Made by a program: the position numbers and the translations under genes
In this document: one piece after another, positions 23,037 through 33,295 of the stretch
Layout: each line of letters begins with the position of its first letter
How positions within the stretch are numbered: the first letter of the stretch is position 1
Source of the DNA: Verrucomicrobiota bacterium
GTDB taxonomy: Bacteria > Verrucomicrobiota > Verrucomicrobiia > Limisphaerales > UBA9464
Assembly: GCA_947454705.1 (NCBI GenBank)
Contig: CANGKZ010000030.1
Location: 1-58,073 of the forward strand
Reading direction: 5' to 3'
Length of the DNA: 58,073 nucleotides
Notes under the pieces: generated by a model
The model's input: the letters and a program-made list of their open reading frames with translations, nothing else
The model's database searches: none
Told to the model about the DNA's origin: nothing

Positions 23037-23609
23037 GTGCTGTTGTTCCACGAAAAGATTCCTTCCGACTGGTTGCCCAAGGTCCTCGCCAACCTCCCCG
23101 AGGTGCTGGTGGATCATGCCCACCTTGAGCGCAAGGCGGCCACCTCGGCTTTGAACCTGGAGAAGTTCCGTCCGCTGTTCGACCGGGTGCACGACCTAAA
23201 CGCGATCGCGATTGAGGAGCTGCAGCACTTTGAGCTCGTGTTGCAGTTGTTGCACAGGCGCGGAATTCCGTTCGCCGAGCCCAAGCCGAGCGCGTGGATC
23301 AAGGGACTGATGCGCGCCATCCGTCCCGGAATTCAGGGACAGGTGATCGATCATCTCATCTGCTGCGCGCTGATCGAGGGTCGCAGTTGCGAGAAGTTCC
23401 AGATTCTTGGCGAGGCGTTGCGCGAGGTGGATTCCGAGCTCGCGGAGTTCTATCGAAGCCTGGTGGAATCGGAGGGGAACCACTACGCCACGTACCTGAT
23501 CATGGCGCGGCACATCGATCTGGAGGAAACCGACCGGCGCCTGGACTGGTTCCTCGATTTGGAAGCGGAGCTCATTCGTCAGCCGAATCCCGAGGCCATC
23601 CTCCACTGA
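23037..23609 (+). CDS. miaE: tRNA-(ms2io6A)-hydroxylase MiaE
   Basis: This 190-residue protein is a ferritin-like non-heme di-iron enzyme. The iron ligands appear in the expected order: DHAHLERKAA (Glu and His), EELQHFELV, EGRSCEKF and ESEGNHYATY. MiaE hydroxylates 2-methylthio-N6-isopentenyladenosine at position 37 of tRNAs reading UNN codons. The start is GTG, preceded by GGGG; no better ATG exists upstream of the conserved FHEKIP start. The gene is short-spaced from the convergent exported protein (21 bases). Confidence 0.92.
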   Translation: MLLFHEKIPSDWLPKVLANLPEVLVDHAHLERKAATSALNLEKFRPLFDRVHDLNAIAIEELQHFELVLQLLHRRGIPFAEPKPSAWIKGLMRAIRPGIQGQVIDHLICCALIEGRSCEKFQILGEALREVDSELAEFYRSLVESEGNHYATYLIMARHIDLEETDRRLDWFLDLEAELIRQPNPEAILH

Positions 23610-24160: not shown

Positions 24161-25354
24161 TTAAAATCCCTTCGACGGGAATGGAAGCACTCCGGGCTGG
24201 GGTTTAACGAGTGGTGCGGATGCCTTCGCCGGAGCCGGGGTGCTGAAGGCTCCGCCACTCACACTGCCCGCGTTGCCGCCGAATCCGGTGGAATTGTTGA
24301 CCCCGCCAAAAACACCGCTGGAAGCCGGAGCTCCAAAGGCCTTGGTTGCGGAGGAGGATTTTTGCGAATCGAACAGCCCCTGCTTGGAACTCGATGCGTC
24401 GTTGCCGCCGAGGATCTCCTTAAACTGCTGGCTGTGGTTTGCCCGCGAGGCGCGCATCTCCTCCAGCAGACTGACATCGGACTTGGAAGAGGCCGGTGAA
24501 TTGGGGTTTGAAAGATACGAATCCACCCGGTCCGACTGACCGCGCTGTGGGCCGGCATCGGATCCCGACCTGGGACTCGCCTCGCCGCCAATTCCGGATC
24601 GGGACGTGGAGTCGTCCGAACTGGAGGAACGTCCTGCGGTGAAGGGATCGCTGAAAACGGCCTGTTGGAAGGGGCGGTTCTCGCGGTCCGCGGAAGTCGC
24701 GGTGGCGCGCTTGGAATCGCGATCGCGCTTGGTTCCCACCTCGAGGTCCTGGTCCGCATCCTCGCGGGTCGCGCTGGATGGATCGTCCTTCCGGCGGTTC
24801 TTGGCGTCCCGCTCCTCCTTGCTTGCACGCTCGGCCCGGGATTCGTCGTCGTCACCCGCCATGCGCTTTTCCAAAAGCGTGCGCTGACGGCTCGACTCGA
24901 ATTCCACCGGCCTGGAGTCGGAATCCTTCCGGCCTCCGGAGGTTCCAGATTTGGTACGATCCTTGGGGTTGGAGTTCGCCGCGGACTTGTCGTCGAACAT
25001 CCAGTTCTTTTTCCGATCGTACTCCTCCATGAGCTTCCGGCGCATGCGCGGATCCAGCTTCTGGTTTTGCTGGAGTCCGGAAGGGGGAGGGATGTCGATC
25101 CCCGGGACGCTGGATCCTCCACCTCCGCCGGGGAGTTGGAATGATTCGCGGACATCGGTCGCCTTGGTGGGGGCGGCGCCTGCGTCCGAACCCTGCTTGG
25201 AGCTGACCTTGGCCGGAGATGCGACGGGGGCCGAGGAAGCAGAAGCAGGTGAAGCCGGGGCGGGATCGCCGTGAACGGCCAACGTCATCGCCAGACCCGT
25301 CAGCGCGGCGGCGCGCCCGAGAACGCTGGCGGGGAAAGTCAGACCGTGATGCAT
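24161..25354 (-). CDS. Hypothetical exported, low-complexity charged protein
   Basis: This 397-residue protein begins with a signal peptide (about residues 8-28) and then is mostly disordered: an Ala/Ser/Pro stretch, a Pro/Gly-rich segment, a short helical block around LDPRMRRKLMEEYDRKKNWMF (about 102-122), a very charged Asp/Arg/Lys/Glu-rich middle (about 125-225) and a Ser/Gly-rich end. No domain is recognised. The helical block and the conserved-looking GVLPFPSKGF end may be the functional parts. It lies 51 bases downstream of the mrp stop and could share that transcript. Confidence 0.65.
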   Translation of the reverse strand: MHHGLTFPASVLGRAAALTGLAMTLAVHGDPAPASPASASSAPVASPAKVSSKQGSDAGAAPTKATDVRESFQLPGGGGGSSVPGIDIPPPSGLQQNQKLDPRMRRKLMEEYDRKKNWMFDDKSAANSNPKDRTKSGTSGGRKDSDSRPVEFESSRQRTLLEKRMAGDDDESRAERASKEERDAKNRRKDDPSSATREDADQDLEVGTKRDRDSKRATATSADRENRPFQQAVFSDPFTAGRSSSSDDSTSRSGIGGEASPRSGSDAGPQRGQSDRVDSYLSNPNSPASSKSDVSLLEEMRASRANHSQQFKEILGGNDASSSKQGLFDSQKSSSATKAFGAPASSGVFGGVNNSTGFGGNAGSVSGGAFSTPAPAKASAPLVKPQPGVLPFPSKGF

Positions 25355-25405: not shown

Positions 25406-26452
25406 TCAGATGAGCCGGGCTTGAAGCTGGCGGGCGATTTCGAGGAACGCCTTCGCCGGGGCCGACGCTGGATTGCCCGCCACGATCGGAATTCCCCGGT
25501 CTCCGCCCTCGCGGATCTCGGTGAAGAGCGGCACTTCGCCCAGGAATGGTACCCCCTTGCGCGCCGCCTCGGTGCGTCCGCCGCCGTGGCCGAAGATCTC
25601 GATGCGCGATCCGTCCGGGGCGGTGAAGTAGCTCATGTTCTCCACCAGACCCAAAATCGGTACGTTCACCTTTTCGAACATGGCCACGCCCTTGCGCACG
25701 ACGCCGAGGGAGGCTTCCTGCGGGGTGGTGACGATCACGCCGCCGTCGAGCGGCACGGTCTGGCAGAGCGACAATTGCGCGTCGCCGGTGCCCGGGGGAA
25801 GGTCCACCAGCAGGAAGTCGAGCGTGCCCCAGTCCACCTGATGCACGAACTGCTGGATGGTCTTCTGGATCATCGGTCCGCGCCAGATGACCGGCTGGTC
25901 GTCCTGGATGAGGAAGCCCATGCTCATCAGCTTCACGCCGTGCGCCACGGGCGGGACCAGCTTTTCCTCCTCGTTCACGCCGGGGCGCTGGTTCAGGCCC
26001 ATCATCAGCGGAATGCTCGGCCCGTAAATGTCGCAGTCGAGCAGCCCGACCGACGCACCGAGCTGCTGGAGCGCGCAGGCGAGGTTTACCGAGCAGGTGG
26101 ACTTGCCCACGCCGCCCTTGCCGGAGGCTACGGCGACGATGCGGTTGATGCCGGGAATCTTGTTCCGGTTGGCGGCGCCGGGGACCGCGGCGGCGGCCTG
26201 CTGAGGTGAGGGAACCCGCACCTGCACGTGGGCGTCGGTCAATCCCTCGATCCGATCGCGCAGCGCGAGGCGCACGGCATCGGCGATCTGGTTGCCAAGC
26301 TCCTGATTCGGCGTGGTGAGCTCAATGAGAATGCCCGCCGCCATGCCCTCGATCTGGATGTCCTTCACCAGGCCGAAGGAAACGATGTCACGGCTGTATC
26401 CGGGATACTTGACGGTCTTGAGGACGGCGAGGATGGCGTCTTGCGAGAGCAT
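25406..26452 (-). CDS. mrp: Mrp/ApbC-type P-loop ATPase (Fe-S cluster carrier), CxxC-less
   Basis: The 348-residue product has an N-terminal MIP18/DUF59 domain (about residues 1-85) and a Mrp/NBP35 ATPase domain with the deviant Walker A SGKGGVGKST (about 109-118) and VDLPPGTGD. Mrp proteins carry and transfer Fe-S clusters. The C-terminal region reads ENMSYFTAPDGSRIEIFGHGG, so the CxxC found in many Mrp/ApbC proteins is absent; CxxC-less forms are known, but cluster binding is then less certain. It is the last gene of the isc operon, 77 bases after iscS. Confidence 0.9.
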   Translation of the reverse strand: MLSQDAILAVLKTVKYPGYSRDIVSFGLVKDIQIEGMAAGILIELTTPNQELGNQIADAVRLALRDRIEGLTDAHVQVRVPSPQQAAAAVPGAANRNKIPGINRIVAVASGKGGVGKSTCSVNLACALQQLGASVGLLDCDIYGPSIPLMMGLNQRPGVNEEEKLVPPVAHGVKLMSMGFLIQDDQPVIWRGPMIQKTIQQFVHQVDWGTLDFLLVDLPPGTGDAQLSLCQTVPLDGGVIVTTPQEASLGVVRKGVAMFEKVNVPILGLVENMSYFTAPDGSRIEIFGHGGGRTEAARKGVPFLGEVPLFTEIREGGDRGIPIVAGNPASAPAKAFLEIARQLQARLI

Positions 26453-26529: not shown

Positions 26530-27795
26530 TCAGTGGGCGGCCTTGCCCGAGACGTCGGCGGCGTGCTGGGAGAAGGATTTGCCGCGACCGGTCGGTGCGA
26601 TCACGGAATCGATGATGCCCTTCTGGAATTCGTCCCACATGGGCGACATGCCACGGAGCTTGGTCACGATCTTGGCGAAGGTCTCCACCGTGTAATCGAT
26701 GTCGGCCTCGGTGTTGTCCTTGCCGAGGCTCATGATGATGTTGCCCTGCGCGAGCGCGTGATCGAGGCCGATGGCTCCGAGCACGTGCGAGATCTTGAGC
26801 GACTTGCTCACGCAGCTCGATCCGCTGGCCACGGCGATGCCGTTCATGTCGCAGAGCAGGAGCTGTCCCTCGCCCTCGATGAATTCGGTCGAGAGATTGA
26901 GATTGGTGCAGATGCGTCCGGGTCCGGGCACGGGGCCGTTGAGCTGGATGTAGGGAATCTGGGTCTTGAGACCGTCCCAAAGCCGCTTCTGCAACGCCGC
27001 CGTGTGGGCGGACCGGGCCGGCAGTTCCTTGAGCGCGATTTCCGCGGCGACTCCGCCACCGACGATGGCCGGAACGTTTTCCGTGCCGGCGCGGCGTCCG
27101 CCTTCCTGGATGCCGCCATGGAGAATGGAAACAATGCGCGCCTTGCGATTGCGGTAGAGCACGCCGACGCCCTTGGGTCCGTAGAACCGGTGCGGCGAGA
27201 AGCTCACCAGGGCGGCGCCGAATTCCTTCACATCGATGGGCAGCCAGCCGGCGCTGGCATCGCAATCCACATACAACGGAACGCCGAGTTCGGCGCAAAT
27301 CTTCCCGGCCTCGCGCACCGGCTGGATGGTGCCGATGTCGTGGTTCACATGATGCAGGGCCACGAGCACGGTCTGCGGCGTGATGGCGGCGCGGAGGTCG
27401 GCGAGGTCGATGAAGCCTTCGCGGTCCACCTTCACGCGGGTGCAGGTCCAGCCCTGTTTTTCGAGGAATTCGACCGATTGAATCACGCTCGGGTGCTCGG
27501 TCGCGGACACGACGAGGTGCTTGCCCTTGCGTTCGTTCGCGTAGGCCACGCCCTTGATCGCGAGATTCGCGGATTCAGTGCCGTCGGAGGTGAAGAAGAT
27601 CTCCTCCTCGCTTTCCGCGTGGATCAGCGCGGCCATCTGCTGACGCGCGGTCTTGAGGGCGTCGCGAACGCGCAGGCCATGCTGGTGCAGCGAGGACGGA
27701 TTGCCGAACGCCTCGGTGAAGAACGGCTTCATGGCGTCGAACACCTCGGACAGGACGGGCGTGCTGGACTGATGATCAAGAAAGACGTGGCGCAT
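26530..27795 (-). CDS. iscS: Cysteine desulfurase homologue with altered PLP site (IscS-like)
   Basis: This 421-residue fold-type I protein aligns end to end with IscS/NifS: FFTSDGTESANLAIKG, ATEHPSVIQ (His), VDCDASAGWLPIDV, SPHRFYGPKGVGVLY and GSSCVSKSLKISHVL. The active-site Cys328 is present. However, the invariant SxHK lysine that forms the Schiff base with PLP is Arg203 (codon CGG at 27187-27189, minus strand), and the glutamine of VDxxQ that contacts PLP is replaced. Desulfurase activity is therefore doubtful. The frame is intact. ATG 27795 is chosen because the family starts there. The gene follows iscU by 161 bases. Confidence 0.85.
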   Translation of the reverse strand: MRHVFLDHQSSTPVLSEVFDAMKPFFTEAFGNPSSLHQHGLRVRDALKTARQQMAALIHAESEEEIFFTSDGTESANLAIKGVAYANERKGKHLVVSATEHPSVIQSVEFLEKQGWTCTRVKVDREGFIDLADLRAAITPQTVLVALHHVNHDIGTIQPVREAGKICAELGVPLYVDCDASAGWLPIDVKEFGAALVSFSPHRFYGPKGVGVLYRNRKARIVSILHGGIQEGGRRAGTENVPAIVGGGVAAEIALKELPARSAHTAALQKRLWDGLKTQIPYIQLNGPVPGPGRICTNLNLSTEFIEGEGQLLLCDMNGIAVASGSSCVSKSLKISHVLGAIGLDHALAQGNIIMSLGKDNTEADIDYTVETFAKIVTKLRGMSPMWDEFQKGIIDSVIAPTGRGKSFSQHAADVSGKAAH

Positions 27796-28453: not shown

Positions 28454-28960
28454 TCAGGCGGCGTTCTTCTCGGTCAACGCCGCGGGCTTTGCGGCCCGTT
28501 GCGGACGGAACACAATGCGCTCGCGCTGACGCGCCTGGCGCACCATTCCGCCGGGAATGTGCCGACCCGACAACTGCGCCACCGTGGCGCTGGAAAAGAC
28601 TTCCTTCACGCGGTCCTGCGCCTCGGCAAACAAACCGCAGAGGGCGCAACCGCCCGCATGCTCGCATCCGGTATCCTCATCCAGACACCGGGTGAGGGAC
28701 ACCGGACCTTCAACGGCCTCGATGACTTCCAACGCGGTGATCGTTTCCGGCGACCGCACGAGCATGAATCCGCCGCCGGATCCGCGGGAGGATTTCACCA
28801 GCTTCCCGCGGGCCAGACTTTGAAAGATCTTGCCCAGAAAACTGACCGGAATGTCTTCCTCCCGGGCCACCACATCGAGCATCACCACCTCGCCCATCGG
28901 ACGCCGGGCCAGGGCCAGAAGGCCCAGCATGGCGTATTCGCTGGCTCGAGTGATTTGCAT
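28454..28960 (-). CDS. iscR: Rrf2 family regulator, IscR-like
   Basis: The 168-residue protein has the Rrf2 winged helix at the N-terminus (MQITRASEYAMLGLLALARR, then SFLGKIFQSLARGKLVKSSRGSGGGF) and a cysteine cluster C-x6-C-x5-C-x2-C at about residues 92-108 that could hold a [2Fe-2S] cluster as in IscR. The C-terminal 40 residues are basic and Ala-rich. It opens the isc operon, which it probably represses according to cluster supply. A promoter and an inverted repeat lie just upstream. Other Rrf2 members sense redox or nitric oxide, but the context favours IscR. Confidence 0.88.
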   Translation of the reverse strand: MQITRASEYAMLGLLALARRPMGEVVMLDVVAREEDIPVSFLGKIFQSLARGKLVKSSRGSGGGFMLVRSPETITALEVIEAVEGPVSLTRCLDEDTGCEHAGGCALCGLFAEAQDRVKEVFSSATVAQLSGRHIPGGMVRQARQRERIVFRPQRAAKPAALTEKNAA

Positions 28961-30942: not shown

Positions 30943-32145
30943 TCACACCTTCACAACCCACTTTCGATCCTCCCACACGGCGCGGATCGAGGTGAGGTTG
31001 CGGGAATCGAACACGTGTCCGGCGGCCTTGATCAGGCGACCCTTCTTGGCGGCCTGCCAGGCGTCGCTGGCGCTGATCGCAACAAACTGAAGCACGCTCG
31101 GATCGCGGTAGCAGTCGATCATGCAGCGGGTGCAGCCGTCGCGGATGAGTTTGGAATCGTCCCACTCGTACACGTTGCACATGGGGGTTTCCCAGAAATG
31201 GCAGCGGTAGAGATTCAGGTTCCAGTCGAGGTAGAAGTACTTGTGTCCGCCGAGGCAGCCGAACTTCTCCTTCTCTCCGCGGAGGTGGCGCTGCATTTCA
31301 TCCAGCGATTCCGTGGGGTTCACCACGGGGTAGCCGCTGTTGTGCTTCATCCGCTTGATCTTCTCAAACAGCTCGATGAGTTCGGCATTGGTGAAGCTCA
31401 CCAGTCCGCCCTCGCTGAAGCTCAGGTAGCTCGAGGCGAGATTCGTGAGCGGATAGCTGAAGGTGCAGCTCGTGAAGCCGAGGGATTCGAGGAACGCGGG
31501 CAGCTTCTCGAAGTCCTCGATCAGGCGGCTGGCGGTGATGCTGGCCGTGGTCTGGATGCCGACGCTCTGGAAATACTCGTTGGCCCGTTTGATCTTTCGG
31601 CAGACGTCGGGAAGACCGCGGTTCTTCTCGTGCACCGCGATGTCGTGCGCGTCGATCGACATGATCACGCTGCTCAGGCCGTCGGAGGCCAGATCCTTCA
31701 TGTTCTGCTCGGTCCACAGACCGCCGTTGGTGCAGATCATCGGCTTGATCCCGCGCTCCACGGCGTAGCGGGTCATGGCCCGGAGTTCCTTGTGCACGAG
31801 CGGCTCGCCGCCAACGAACAGGAGGTACCCGATGTGATTCTTCACCGCGATGTCGATGACATCCTGCGCCTCGCGAAGCGTCACGCTGCGGCGCTTTTTC
31901 GGGTCAAACTGGGAACGGGCGAACCCGCAGAATCCGCAGTCGGCGTTGCACAGGTTGGTGATGGCGAACTGGAGGTAGCCCGGGCCACCGTGGTCGAGGA
32001 CCTCGCCGATCAGCTTGAAGACCGATTTCTTCGGGGCCTGCAGCGGTTTGGAAAAATCGACCGGATGCGGAGGCTGGGCCACCGCGACCGGAGGGGTCGT
32101 GGCGGAGGGCGGAATCGGATCGGCTGGGTTCGTGGCGGCAGTCAT
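30943..32145 (-). CDS. Radical SAM protein with C-terminal cysteine cluster
   Basis: The 400-residue protein starts at ATG 32145; upstream in-frame sequence looks non-coding. After a Pro/Ala-rich start comes the radical SAM motif CNADCGFC (C66, C70, C73), which holds the SAM-binding [4Fe-4S] cluster. VGGEPLVHKEL and CTNGGLWTEQNM follow the usual barrel pattern. The C-terminal third has many cysteines (GCLGGHKYFYLDWNLNLYRC, TPMCNVY, DGCTRCMIDCYRD), resembling a SPASM/twitch-type auxiliary cluster domain. Such proteins modify peptides, lipids or cofactors; the substrate is unknown. It is divergent from the acetamidase gene with 217 bases between. Confidence 0.85.
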   Translation of the reverse strand: MTAATNPADPIPPSATTPPVAVAQPPHPVDFSKPLQAPKKSVFKLIGEVLDHGGPGYLQFAITNLCNADCGFCGFARSQFDPKKRRSVTLREAQDVIDIAVKNHIGYLLFVGGEPLVHKELRAMTRYAVERGIKPMICTNGGLWTEQNMKDLASDGLSSVIMSIDAHDIAVHEKNRGLPDVCRKIKRANEYFQSVGIQTTASITASRLIEDFEKLPAFLESLGFTSCTFSYPLTNLASSYLSFSEGGLVSFTNAELIELFEKIKRMKHNSGYPVVNPTESLDEMQRHLRGEKEKFGCLGGHKYFYLDWNLNLYRCHFWETPMCNVYEWDDSKLIRDGCTRCMIDCYRDPSVLQFVAISASDAWQAAKKGRLIKAAGHVFDSRNLTSIRAVWEDRKWVVKV

Positions 32146-32362
32146 TGCAACGTGCGCGGAGAATCGGCGAAAAACCCCGTGTCGCAATCCTTTCTTGTCG
32201 GTACTCCTTTGATCAGTGCGGTGGCGGCTTTTGGTCATTCCCGGCCCGGGGACGTCGAAAATGCCCGGAATCCCCGGATGGCCCCGGGTTTGCTCTGTGG
32301 TTTTGAGCAGTTGTACCAGGAATGGAAATCCCGTCTGCCATCGTCCGTTGATTGAACCGCCT

Positions 32363-33295
32363 ATGCGCCTCCACACCGTCGAAACTCACCGCACCCACGA
32401 CCGCTGGAACAGCGCGCTGCCGCCCGCGCTTGAAGTTGAATCAGGGGACGGCGTGGTGATGAACTGCCTCGATTCCAGCGGCGGGCAGATGCATCCCGGC
32501 GCGACGGTGAAGGATTTCGTGGCCATGGATCGCAGCCGCATCCACACCATCACCGGACCGGTGTTCATCCGGGGCGCGAAGCCGGGCGATGTGCTGGAAG
32601 TGGAAATTATCGACATTCAGCACTGCGGCTGGGGCTGGACCAGTTGCATCGCCGGATTGGGAACGCTGCCCGATCGGTTCCCGAATCCGCACCTGTTCAT
32701 CTGGAAGCTCGACGGCGACTTCTCGACTTCACTGGCCCCGGTGCGTCTGCCCCTTGCTCCATTTTTGGGCATCACGGGCGTTTGCCCCCCGGAGCCGGGT
32801 GAGCACCGGACGCGTCCCCCGGGTTCGTTCGGTGGCAATCTCGACGTGAGGGATCTCGTTCCGGGCACCCGCCTGTTCCTGCCGGTGTTCCAGGAGGGCG
32901 CGCTGTTTTCCGCGGGGGATGGTCATGCCGCGCAGGGCAATGGCGAGGTTTGCATCAATGGCATTGAGGCCCCGATGCGCGCCGAGTTCCGCTTCACGGT
33001 GCGCAAGGACATGAAACTCGATGAACCCTTCGCGGAACTTCCGCCGGCGCGTCCGGCCTTGGTCCCGGATGAGGGACACTGGGCCTTCATCGCGAGCGCC
33101 CCGCAGACCATGGATGCGGTGCGCAACGTGGTGAACCACGCCATCGATTTCCTCGTGGCCAAAACTGGATGGACCCCGGAGCTGGCCTACACGCTGTGTT
33201 CCGTGGCGCTCGACCTGCGATTGAGCCAGGTGGTGAACCAACCGCAGGTGACGGTCACCGGAACGCTGGCCAAGAACCTGTTCCCCAAAGCCTGA
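32363..33295 (+). CDS. Acetamidase/formamidase family protein
   Basis: This 310-residue protein starts at ATG 32363 (MRLHTVETHRTHDRW). Family signatures are EVESGDGVVMNCLDSSGG, ITGPVFIRGAKPGDVLEVEI, FLGITGVCPPEPGEHRT, GGNLDVRDLVPGTRLFLPV and GDGHAAQGNGEVCINGIEA, which include the metal-binding His/Asp positions. The family hydrolyses short-chain amides such as formamide to ammonia and acid. Its partner genes here give no pathway; it is convergent with pyrD at 31 bases. Confidence 0.9.
   Translation: MRLHTVETHRTHDRWNSALPPALEVESGDGVVMNCLDSSGGQMHPGATVKDFVAMDRSRIHTITGPVFIRGAKPGDVLEVEIIDIQHCGWGWTSCIAGLGTLPDRFPNPHLFIWKLDGDFSTSLAPVRLPLAPFLGITGVCPPEPGEHRTRPPGSFGGNLDVRDLVPGTRLFLPVFQEGALFSAGDGHAAQGNGEVCINGIEAPMRAEFRFTVRKDMKLDEPFAELPPARPALVPDEGHWAFIASAPQTMDAVRNVVNHAIDFLVAKTGWTPELAYTLCSVALDLRLSQVVNQPQVTVTGTLAKNLFPKA

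Follow-up and report, generated by a model that had tools for sequence, protein, structure and literature searches.

A family of IscS/NifS-fold proteins without the PLP lysine in Verrucomicrobiota and its association with IscU-type scaffolds

Introduction

In the textbook machinery for iron-sulfur (Fe-S) cluster assembly, a PLP-dependent cysteine desulfurase hands sulfur to a scaffold protein. A 58,073-nt stretch of verrucomicrobial DNA (the window) encodes, next to an IscU/NifU-type scaffold, a protein of the IscS/NifS fold in which the PLP lysine and three further pocket residues are replaced. The protein and its family are referred to here as IscS*. The preferred reading, which we regard as an even call, is that IscS*, without being a desulfurase itself, docks to IscU as a partner that contributes a cysteine ligand, with sulfur being provided by other desulfurases or by sulfide. 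A literature search, conducted mostly at title level, found no published description of a lysine-less IscS in Verrucomicrobiota.

Catalytic residues and predicted structure

The IscS* gene is an intact frame of 421 codons for amino acids, with its ATG at 27795 and its stop at 26532-26530. A sequence-only reading of the window had placed the gene at 26530-27795; this extent is confirmed, and the gene proves to run along the minus strand. The Pfam Aminotran_5 match (E 5.6e-64) assigns the product to the aminotransferase class V fold of IscS/NifS. The best NCBIfam models are NifS (413.4 bits, cut-off 530.75) and IscS (361.8 bits, cut-off 643.2), both scoring under their equivalog cut-offs. Window IscS* and Escherichia coli IscS are 42% identical and share the same fold. 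In their alignment, the Schiff-base site of IscS* reads SPHRFYGPKG and places Arg203 (CGG) at Lys206, while Ala180 stands at Gln183, which bears out the earlier claims that the PLP lysine and the VDxxQ glutamine are changed. The frame, Cys328 and the active-site histidine had been described as intact, and they are: Thr73, His101, Asp177, His202 and Cys328 are retained, corresponding to Thr76, His104, Asp180, His205 and Cys328 of E. coli IscS. Two losses come in addition to those noticed before, namely His152 for Asn155 and Ile354 for Arg354 (Table 1). A substitute PLP lysine was sought and rejected, as none aligns to this column and Lys208 of the GPKG motif is also found in E. coli IscS.

Table 1. 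Features of the IscS* operon in the window
Feature	Position	Strand	Basis
Rrf2 family regulator (IscR-like)	28454..28960	-	Pfam
IscU/NifU-type scaffold, 142 aa	27957..28385	-	Pfam NifU_N, motifs, NCBIfam
IscS*, IscS/NifS fold without PLP lysine, 421 aa	26530..27795	-	translation, Pfam Aminotran_5, residue alignment, model
His152 where E. coli IscS has Asn155	27340..27342	-	alignment
Asp177 (E. coli Asp180), unchanged in 78/78 family rows	27265..27267	-	alignment
Ala180 where E. coli IscS has Gln183	27256..27258	-	alignment
Arg203, codon CGG, in place of the Schiff-base lysine (E. coli IscS Lys206)	27187..27189	-	alignment
Cys328, mobile loop, codon TGC, unchanged in 78/78 family rows	26812..26814	-	alignment, model
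Ile354 where E. coli IscS has substrate-pocket Arg354	26734..26736	-	alignment
C-terminal helix and tail, residues 384-421	26533..26646	-	alignment
Mrp/NBP35-type P-loop NTPase, N-terminal FeS_assembly_P domain, without CxxC pair	25406..26452	-	Pfam, motif

The consequences of such replacements have been reported for E. coli IscS, whose pocket includes His104, Asn155 and Arg354 (PMC9978102). In that study, His104, Asp180, Gln183, Lys206 and Cys328 are termed indispensable, and desulfurase activity is absent from the variants H104Q, Q183E and K206A; R354K is fully active, and the window protein has isoleucine at this position (PMC9978102).

The AlphaFold2 model of IscS* (43 rows) has a pLDDT of 91.9 and a pTM of 0.90. 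Its pLDDT falls below 50 in a single segment, the loop 327-332 that carries Cys328, and confidence is low at the last residues as well. The first 23 Foldseek rows consist of Nfs1, E. coli IscS and Archaeoglobus fulgidus IscS with TM 0.86-0.90 by query length, and the comparison with A. fulgidus IscS from the IscS-IscU complex yields TM 0.87 (by query length). VIA-align Z values range from 53.4 to 55.2 in the first 16 rows, which comprise the same three groups and mostly lie within 1 of their neighbours. The best PDB match by sequence, 9wep, is a cysteine desulfurase with the lysine. The fold likeness of IscS* is uninformative on activity.

Conservation across the family

Close orthologs were gathered from 39 genomes (the window's own and relatives), which provided 28 loci, window included, that are 71-100% identical over their full length. 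The Schiff-base site is arginine in 27 and lysine in one (L037) of these loci; the H-R change for which a search in relatives had been proposed is thus found in 26 of 27 close relatives. Between the window gene and four congeners, dN/dS amounts to 0.06-0.12 (Nei-Gojobori), rough values given a dS of 0.66-1.0, and IscS* is under purifying selection.

A family alignment of 78 rows comprises the window and matches in relatives and in the class, with the loci of G108 and G130 absent. Here, the Schiff-base site is arginine in 69 rows, lysine in four, glycine in four and histidine in one. The residues of E. coli IscS that are replaced include Gln183 and Asn155 in every row, Arg354 in 76 and Lys206 in 74; Asp180 and Cys328 are retained throughout, Thr76 in 74 rows, His104 in 72 and His205 in 67. 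Among 22 paralog rows (two from the window genome and 20 picked from relatives of the order), Asn155, Asp180, Gln183, His205, Lys206, Arg354 and Cys328 are all present in 22/22. This comparison lends good support to the proposal that the protein is probably not a normal desulfurase, since four PLP or substrate-pocket residues are replaced in 74-78 of the 78 rows and the E. coli variants Q183E and K206A are reported as inactive (PMC9978102).

The four lysine-bearing orthologs are L037, L043 and L045, which belong to family f11, are IscU-linked and are otherwise typical IscS*, and L040. Their interpretation as restored enzymes was rejected, as all four still lack Gln183 and Arg354. In a quick tree, f11 is nested among arginine rows, and an 84-row tree requires a minimum of five changes between lysine and non-lysine states. 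Of 73 pattern matches, which count the window gene twice and include no glycine-type rows, 72 encode the arginine as CGN; the lysine codon is AAR, more than one base away from CGN. The four glycine rows (L082, L085, L086 and L089) come from one genus (g80 of f38) with genomes of 2.3-2.4 Mb; their PLP site has decayed further (HFRGCGG), with His104 and His205 gone and Cys328 still in place.

Operon and gene neighbourhood

The gene order on the minus strand of the window is Rrf2 regulator, IscU/NifU-type scaffold, IscS* and Mrp. The scaffold contains all of the motifs ACGD, GCGSAIA and LPPVKIHC; it scores above the NCBIfam cut-off for NifU_clost (TIGR03419, 195.7 against 187.9 bits) and below that for iscU (TIGR01999, 159.9 against 192.4 bits). 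A Pfam search of twelve chosen window ORFs in and around the operon identified Rrf2, NifU_N, Aminotran_5, Mrp, MiaE, cupin, TIM barrel and radical SAM families, left four ORFs without a match and returned no hscB, hscA or fdx. The MiaE protein, a tRNA-(ms2io6A) hydroxylase (23037-23609, plus strand), and the radical SAM protein (30943-32376, minus strand) are encoded near the operon, and a Ser/Asp/Gly-rich ORF of 397 aa without Pfam match (24161-25354, minus strand) lies downstream of Mrp.

A scaffold gene is located on the IscS* strand in 45 of the 78 family loci, upstream in 44 and downstream in L034. Within the examined flanks, most of which span only 1.5 kb, Mrp follows IscS* in 23 of these 45 loci and the full order Rrf2-IscU-IscS*-Mrp is contained in 18. 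Where the flank contains no IscU (33 loci), Mrp was found downstream in 11 (L015, L059, L060, L065, L068, L069, L071, L077, L080, L081 and L090) and not within the examined flank in 22. Genes whose examined flank lacks both IscU and Mrp include L061, L064, L066, L067, L070 and L072, as well as L073, L075, L083, L087 and L088. Mrp is also the downstream neighbour of IscS* in L126. Among the neighbours examined, no common partner of such orphan IscS* genes other than Mrp was seen. The CxxC pair is missing from the Mrp protein of the operon (NMSYFTAPDGSR). The pair is likewise absent from 25 of 26 distinct Mrp sequences at IscS* loci, a count that covers only loci whose Mrp matched the motif pattern; L090 has CxxC.

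The presence of IscU in the flank is mirrored in the C-terminus of IscS*. Where IscU lies in the flank, 43 of 45 rows carry the tail motif, compared with 1 of the 33 other rows, and this single row (L015) stems from a contig that ends there, with the IscU gene of the genome on another contig. In E. coli, IscU is reported to dock on IscS residues 379-391, the helix that matches the C-terminal helix of IscS* (PMC2854127).

Fe-S inventory and distribution

The window's own genome is 95.7% complete, and the absences given here refer to six-frame searches of draft genomes. The SufB/SufD core (SUFBD_core, PF01458) gave no match in this genome and was detected in 14/14 controls. NifU_N matches one protein, the scaffold of the operon, and A-type carrier matches number two. 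The NifU C-terminal domain had no match in the genome, for a family that was detected in only 5 of 14 controls. The genome was also suggested as the place to search for a second desulfurase, and it encodes two further IscS/NifS-like proteins whose residue set is complete, at C2:176262-177404 and C2:139137-140273. The former has a sulfite reductase-type gene as its neighbour and a PAPS reductase-family gene in the vicinity. A less closely related homolog, in which the lysine is present, is located at C23:40126-41232. The idea that sulfur comes from elsewhere gains two candidate sources from these full-residue proteins and is, as judged from their sequences, plausible.

IscS* matches at E <= 1e-90 were obtained in 62 of 286 sampled genomes of the class. 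A search across the phylum at E 1e-90, in which only four candidates per genome were scored, retrieved 5 of 387 genomes, namely the window's own and four of the same class. A close IscU was defined as a NifU_N match with E below 1e-40, which is followed by a gap to the next match at 5.5e-33. SufBD is missing from 30 of the 62 IscS* genomes and present in 32, and a close IscU was found in 29/30 SUF-less versus 1/32 SUF-bearing genomes (Fisher p 3e-15, kinship ignored). The exceptions to this split are G288 (82% complete) and G122. Conversely, IscS* is present in all 30 class genomes with a close IscU, and 9 of 39 SUF-less genomes have no IscS* match. Half of the IscS* genomes (31/62) have SUF and no close IscU; IscU is therefore not the only context of IscS*. 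The persistence of IscS* in these genomes points to a second partner, and Mrp is the best candidate found, though it is absent beside most of those genes.

Phylogeny and known systems compared

In a quick tree, all IscS* rows, including those with lysine, form one clade (70 of 102 rows, SH-aLRT 100) apart from canonical IscS, the paralogs and A. fulgidus IscS. The latter groups with Asp-type proteins of Nitrospinota and Thaumarchaeota bins (98), and this group sits inside mainly archaeal rows (97), with several distant rows being long-branched. In an AU test on 84 rows with 17 pocket columns removed, a joint clade uniting IscS* with L133, L140, L142 and A. fulgidus IscS was not rejected (p 0.284). 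A wider survey covered at least 80 named loci (90 rows) with search patterns that favour the IscS* family. Five of the matches listed there lack the lysine, two from Verrucomicrobiota (Arg) and one each from Nitrospinota (Asp), Thaumarchaeota (Asp) and Dehalococcoidia (Gln). Those outside Verrucomicrobiota are L133:3953-5167 and L142:646-1917 (Asp; Nitrospinota and Thaumarchaeota) and L140:3992-5173 (Gln; Dehalococcoidia). NifU_N and an A-type carrier are encoded near the thaumarchaeal gene.

A precedent from A. fulgidus had been named in the sequence-only reading and it is real: a lysine-less IscS that works with IscU. This IscS is described as inactive, with aspartate for the catalytic lysine, and as supplying a cysteine ligand to the [2Fe-2S] cluster of IscU (PMC7585200). 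Structures are available (PDB 4eb5, 4eb7 and 4hvk, and 4r5f for the D199K mutant), and in the 4eb5 sequence the counterparts of Gln183, His-Lys and Arg354 are Ala, Asn-Asp and Leu. IscS* and A. fulgidus IscS share the fold, the replacement of the Lys, Gln183 and Arg354 positions and the presence of the active cysteine. The window IscS* gene adjoins an IscU gene, an arrangement which we take to hold for A. fulgidus iscS as well. The two proteins differ in the substitutions themselves, as A. fulgidus IscS has Lys to Asp and His205 to Asn with Asn155 retained, whereas IscS* has Lys to Arg and Asn155 to His with His205 retained. They are about 40% identical, and the A. fulgidus protein groups with mainly archaeal rows, the joint clade being unrejected.

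IscS1 of Methanosarcina acetivorans is also reported to lack the lysine and to be encoded with an IscU, and is one of three IscS proteins, with IscS2 being an active desulfurase (PMC7585200). IscS* resembles IscS1 in being a lysine-less IscS encoded with an IscU and differs in that it adjoins the sole NifU_N of a genome without SufB/SufD matches. With E. coli IscS it has in common the fold, the active-site cysteine loop and the IscU-docking C-terminal helix, but not Lys206, Gln183, Asn155 and Arg354; unlike the E. coli isc operon, that of the window contains Mrp, with no hscB, hscA or fdx found. The minimal ISC system, MIS, is described as a cysteine desulfurase and a scaffold with no carrier, and SMS of Methanocaldococcus jannaschii as having no desulfurase and being able to use sulfide (PMC12192291). 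The operon shares the two-part IscS/IscU-type core of MIS, but its IscS* subunit has lost the residues for catalysis, and the genome encodes Mrp and A-type carriers in addition.

Discussion

The reading of IscS* as an IscU partner, in line with the scaffold or cluster-holding role first suggested for it and likewise an inference, is based on the residue losses, the invariant Cys328, the low dN/dS, the gene order and the lack of a SufB/SufD match, together with the single NifU_N protein, the IscU/SUF split, the link between tail and IscU and the A. fulgidus precedent. IscS* would be a desulfurase fold whose PLP chemistry has been lost and which acts as docking and ligand subunit of the scaffold. 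The IscS* dimer would bind IscU through its C-terminal helix and tail, and the flexible loop would swing Cys328 into the IscU site, where its thiolate may complete or protect the nascent [2Fe-2S] cluster. The sulfur source would be either sulfide or a distinct desulfurase in the cell, for which the proteins at C2:176262-177404 and C2:139137-140273 are candidates, and the cluster would then be passed to Mrp or to A-type carriers. Several observations count against this reading. Asp180, Thr76, His104 and His205 are mostly retained, as if a PLP-like ligand were bound. The lysine in 4 of 78 rows, three of them from IscU-linked f11 genomes, is a further such observation, and those rows are without Gln183 and Arg354. 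A pure IscU partner also fails to explain IscS* in the 31 SUF genomes without close IscU.

Alternatively, IscS* may serve as a sulfur relay, making no persulfide of its own and, similar to SufE, receiving one on Cys328 from a complete desulfurase for transfer to IscU. The invariance of Cys328 would fit this role, as would the paralogs with the full catalytic set, which are encoded by this genome and by relatives within the order; one such paralog has the sulfite reductase-type and PAPS reductase-family genes in its vicinity. However, the L001-type paralog is also encoded where IscS* has no match, namely in G030, a genome with SUF, and in G036 and G025. It is therefore not specific to IscS*, and a relay appears unlikely, if worth keeping in view.

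The retained Asp180 (78/78) and Thr76 (74/78) could also indicate that IscS* is still a PLP enzyme, in which Arg203 together with Asp177, His101 and Thr73 holds PLP non-covalently for slow desulfuration or another PLP reaction. The lysine in f11 genomes is in line with this, and E. coli IscS K206A is reported to retain some PLP, which led its authors to speculate on a partial reaction at a very low rate (PMC9978102). Yet Gln183, Asn155 and Arg354 are lost as well, the glycine-type rows have additionally given up His104 and His205, and the lysine-bearing members lack Gln183 and Arg354, which makes lasting PLP chemistry decidedly unlikely.

The loci without IscU leave room for a broader role, in which the IscS fold would now serve as an adaptor that donates a cysteine and has in Mrp, rather than in IscU, perhaps its most lasting partner, with Cys328 providing cluster ligands for both IscU and the CxxC-less Mrp. 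This suggestion is speculative and we consider it very doubtful. If it is true, both the desulfurase and the carrier of this bacterial assembly line would have departed from their textbook chemistry.

It is still more improbable that IscS* is a stabiliser by docking only, which maintains the fold or the proper state of IscU while Cys328 has no direct role. The tail motif tracks IscU, as such a role would predict, and M. acetivorans IscS1 is reported to form inclusion bodies in E. coli, for which the authors suggest that co-expression of IscU1 may be needed (PMC7585200). An idle cysteine, however, would hardly stay in all 78 rows, including those without IscU alongside. Finally, a sequencing error is ruled out by the same residue in close relatives and a decaying pseudogene by the dN/dS values, leaving either with practically no chance of being correct.

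The published exceptions to desulfurase-driven cluster assembly that were found are archaeal, namely A. fulgidus IscS and M. acetivorans IscS1 (PMC7585200) and the SMS system of M. jannaschii (PMC12192291). The same kind of loss is now seen in a bacterial family with members in 62 of the 286 genomes sampled from one class, and an IscU/NifU-type scaffold coexists with the lysine-less IscS* in 29 of the 30 IscS* genomes without SUF. These findings raise the questions of which role an IscS takes on after it has ceased to be an enzyme and from where the sulfur of these clusters originates.
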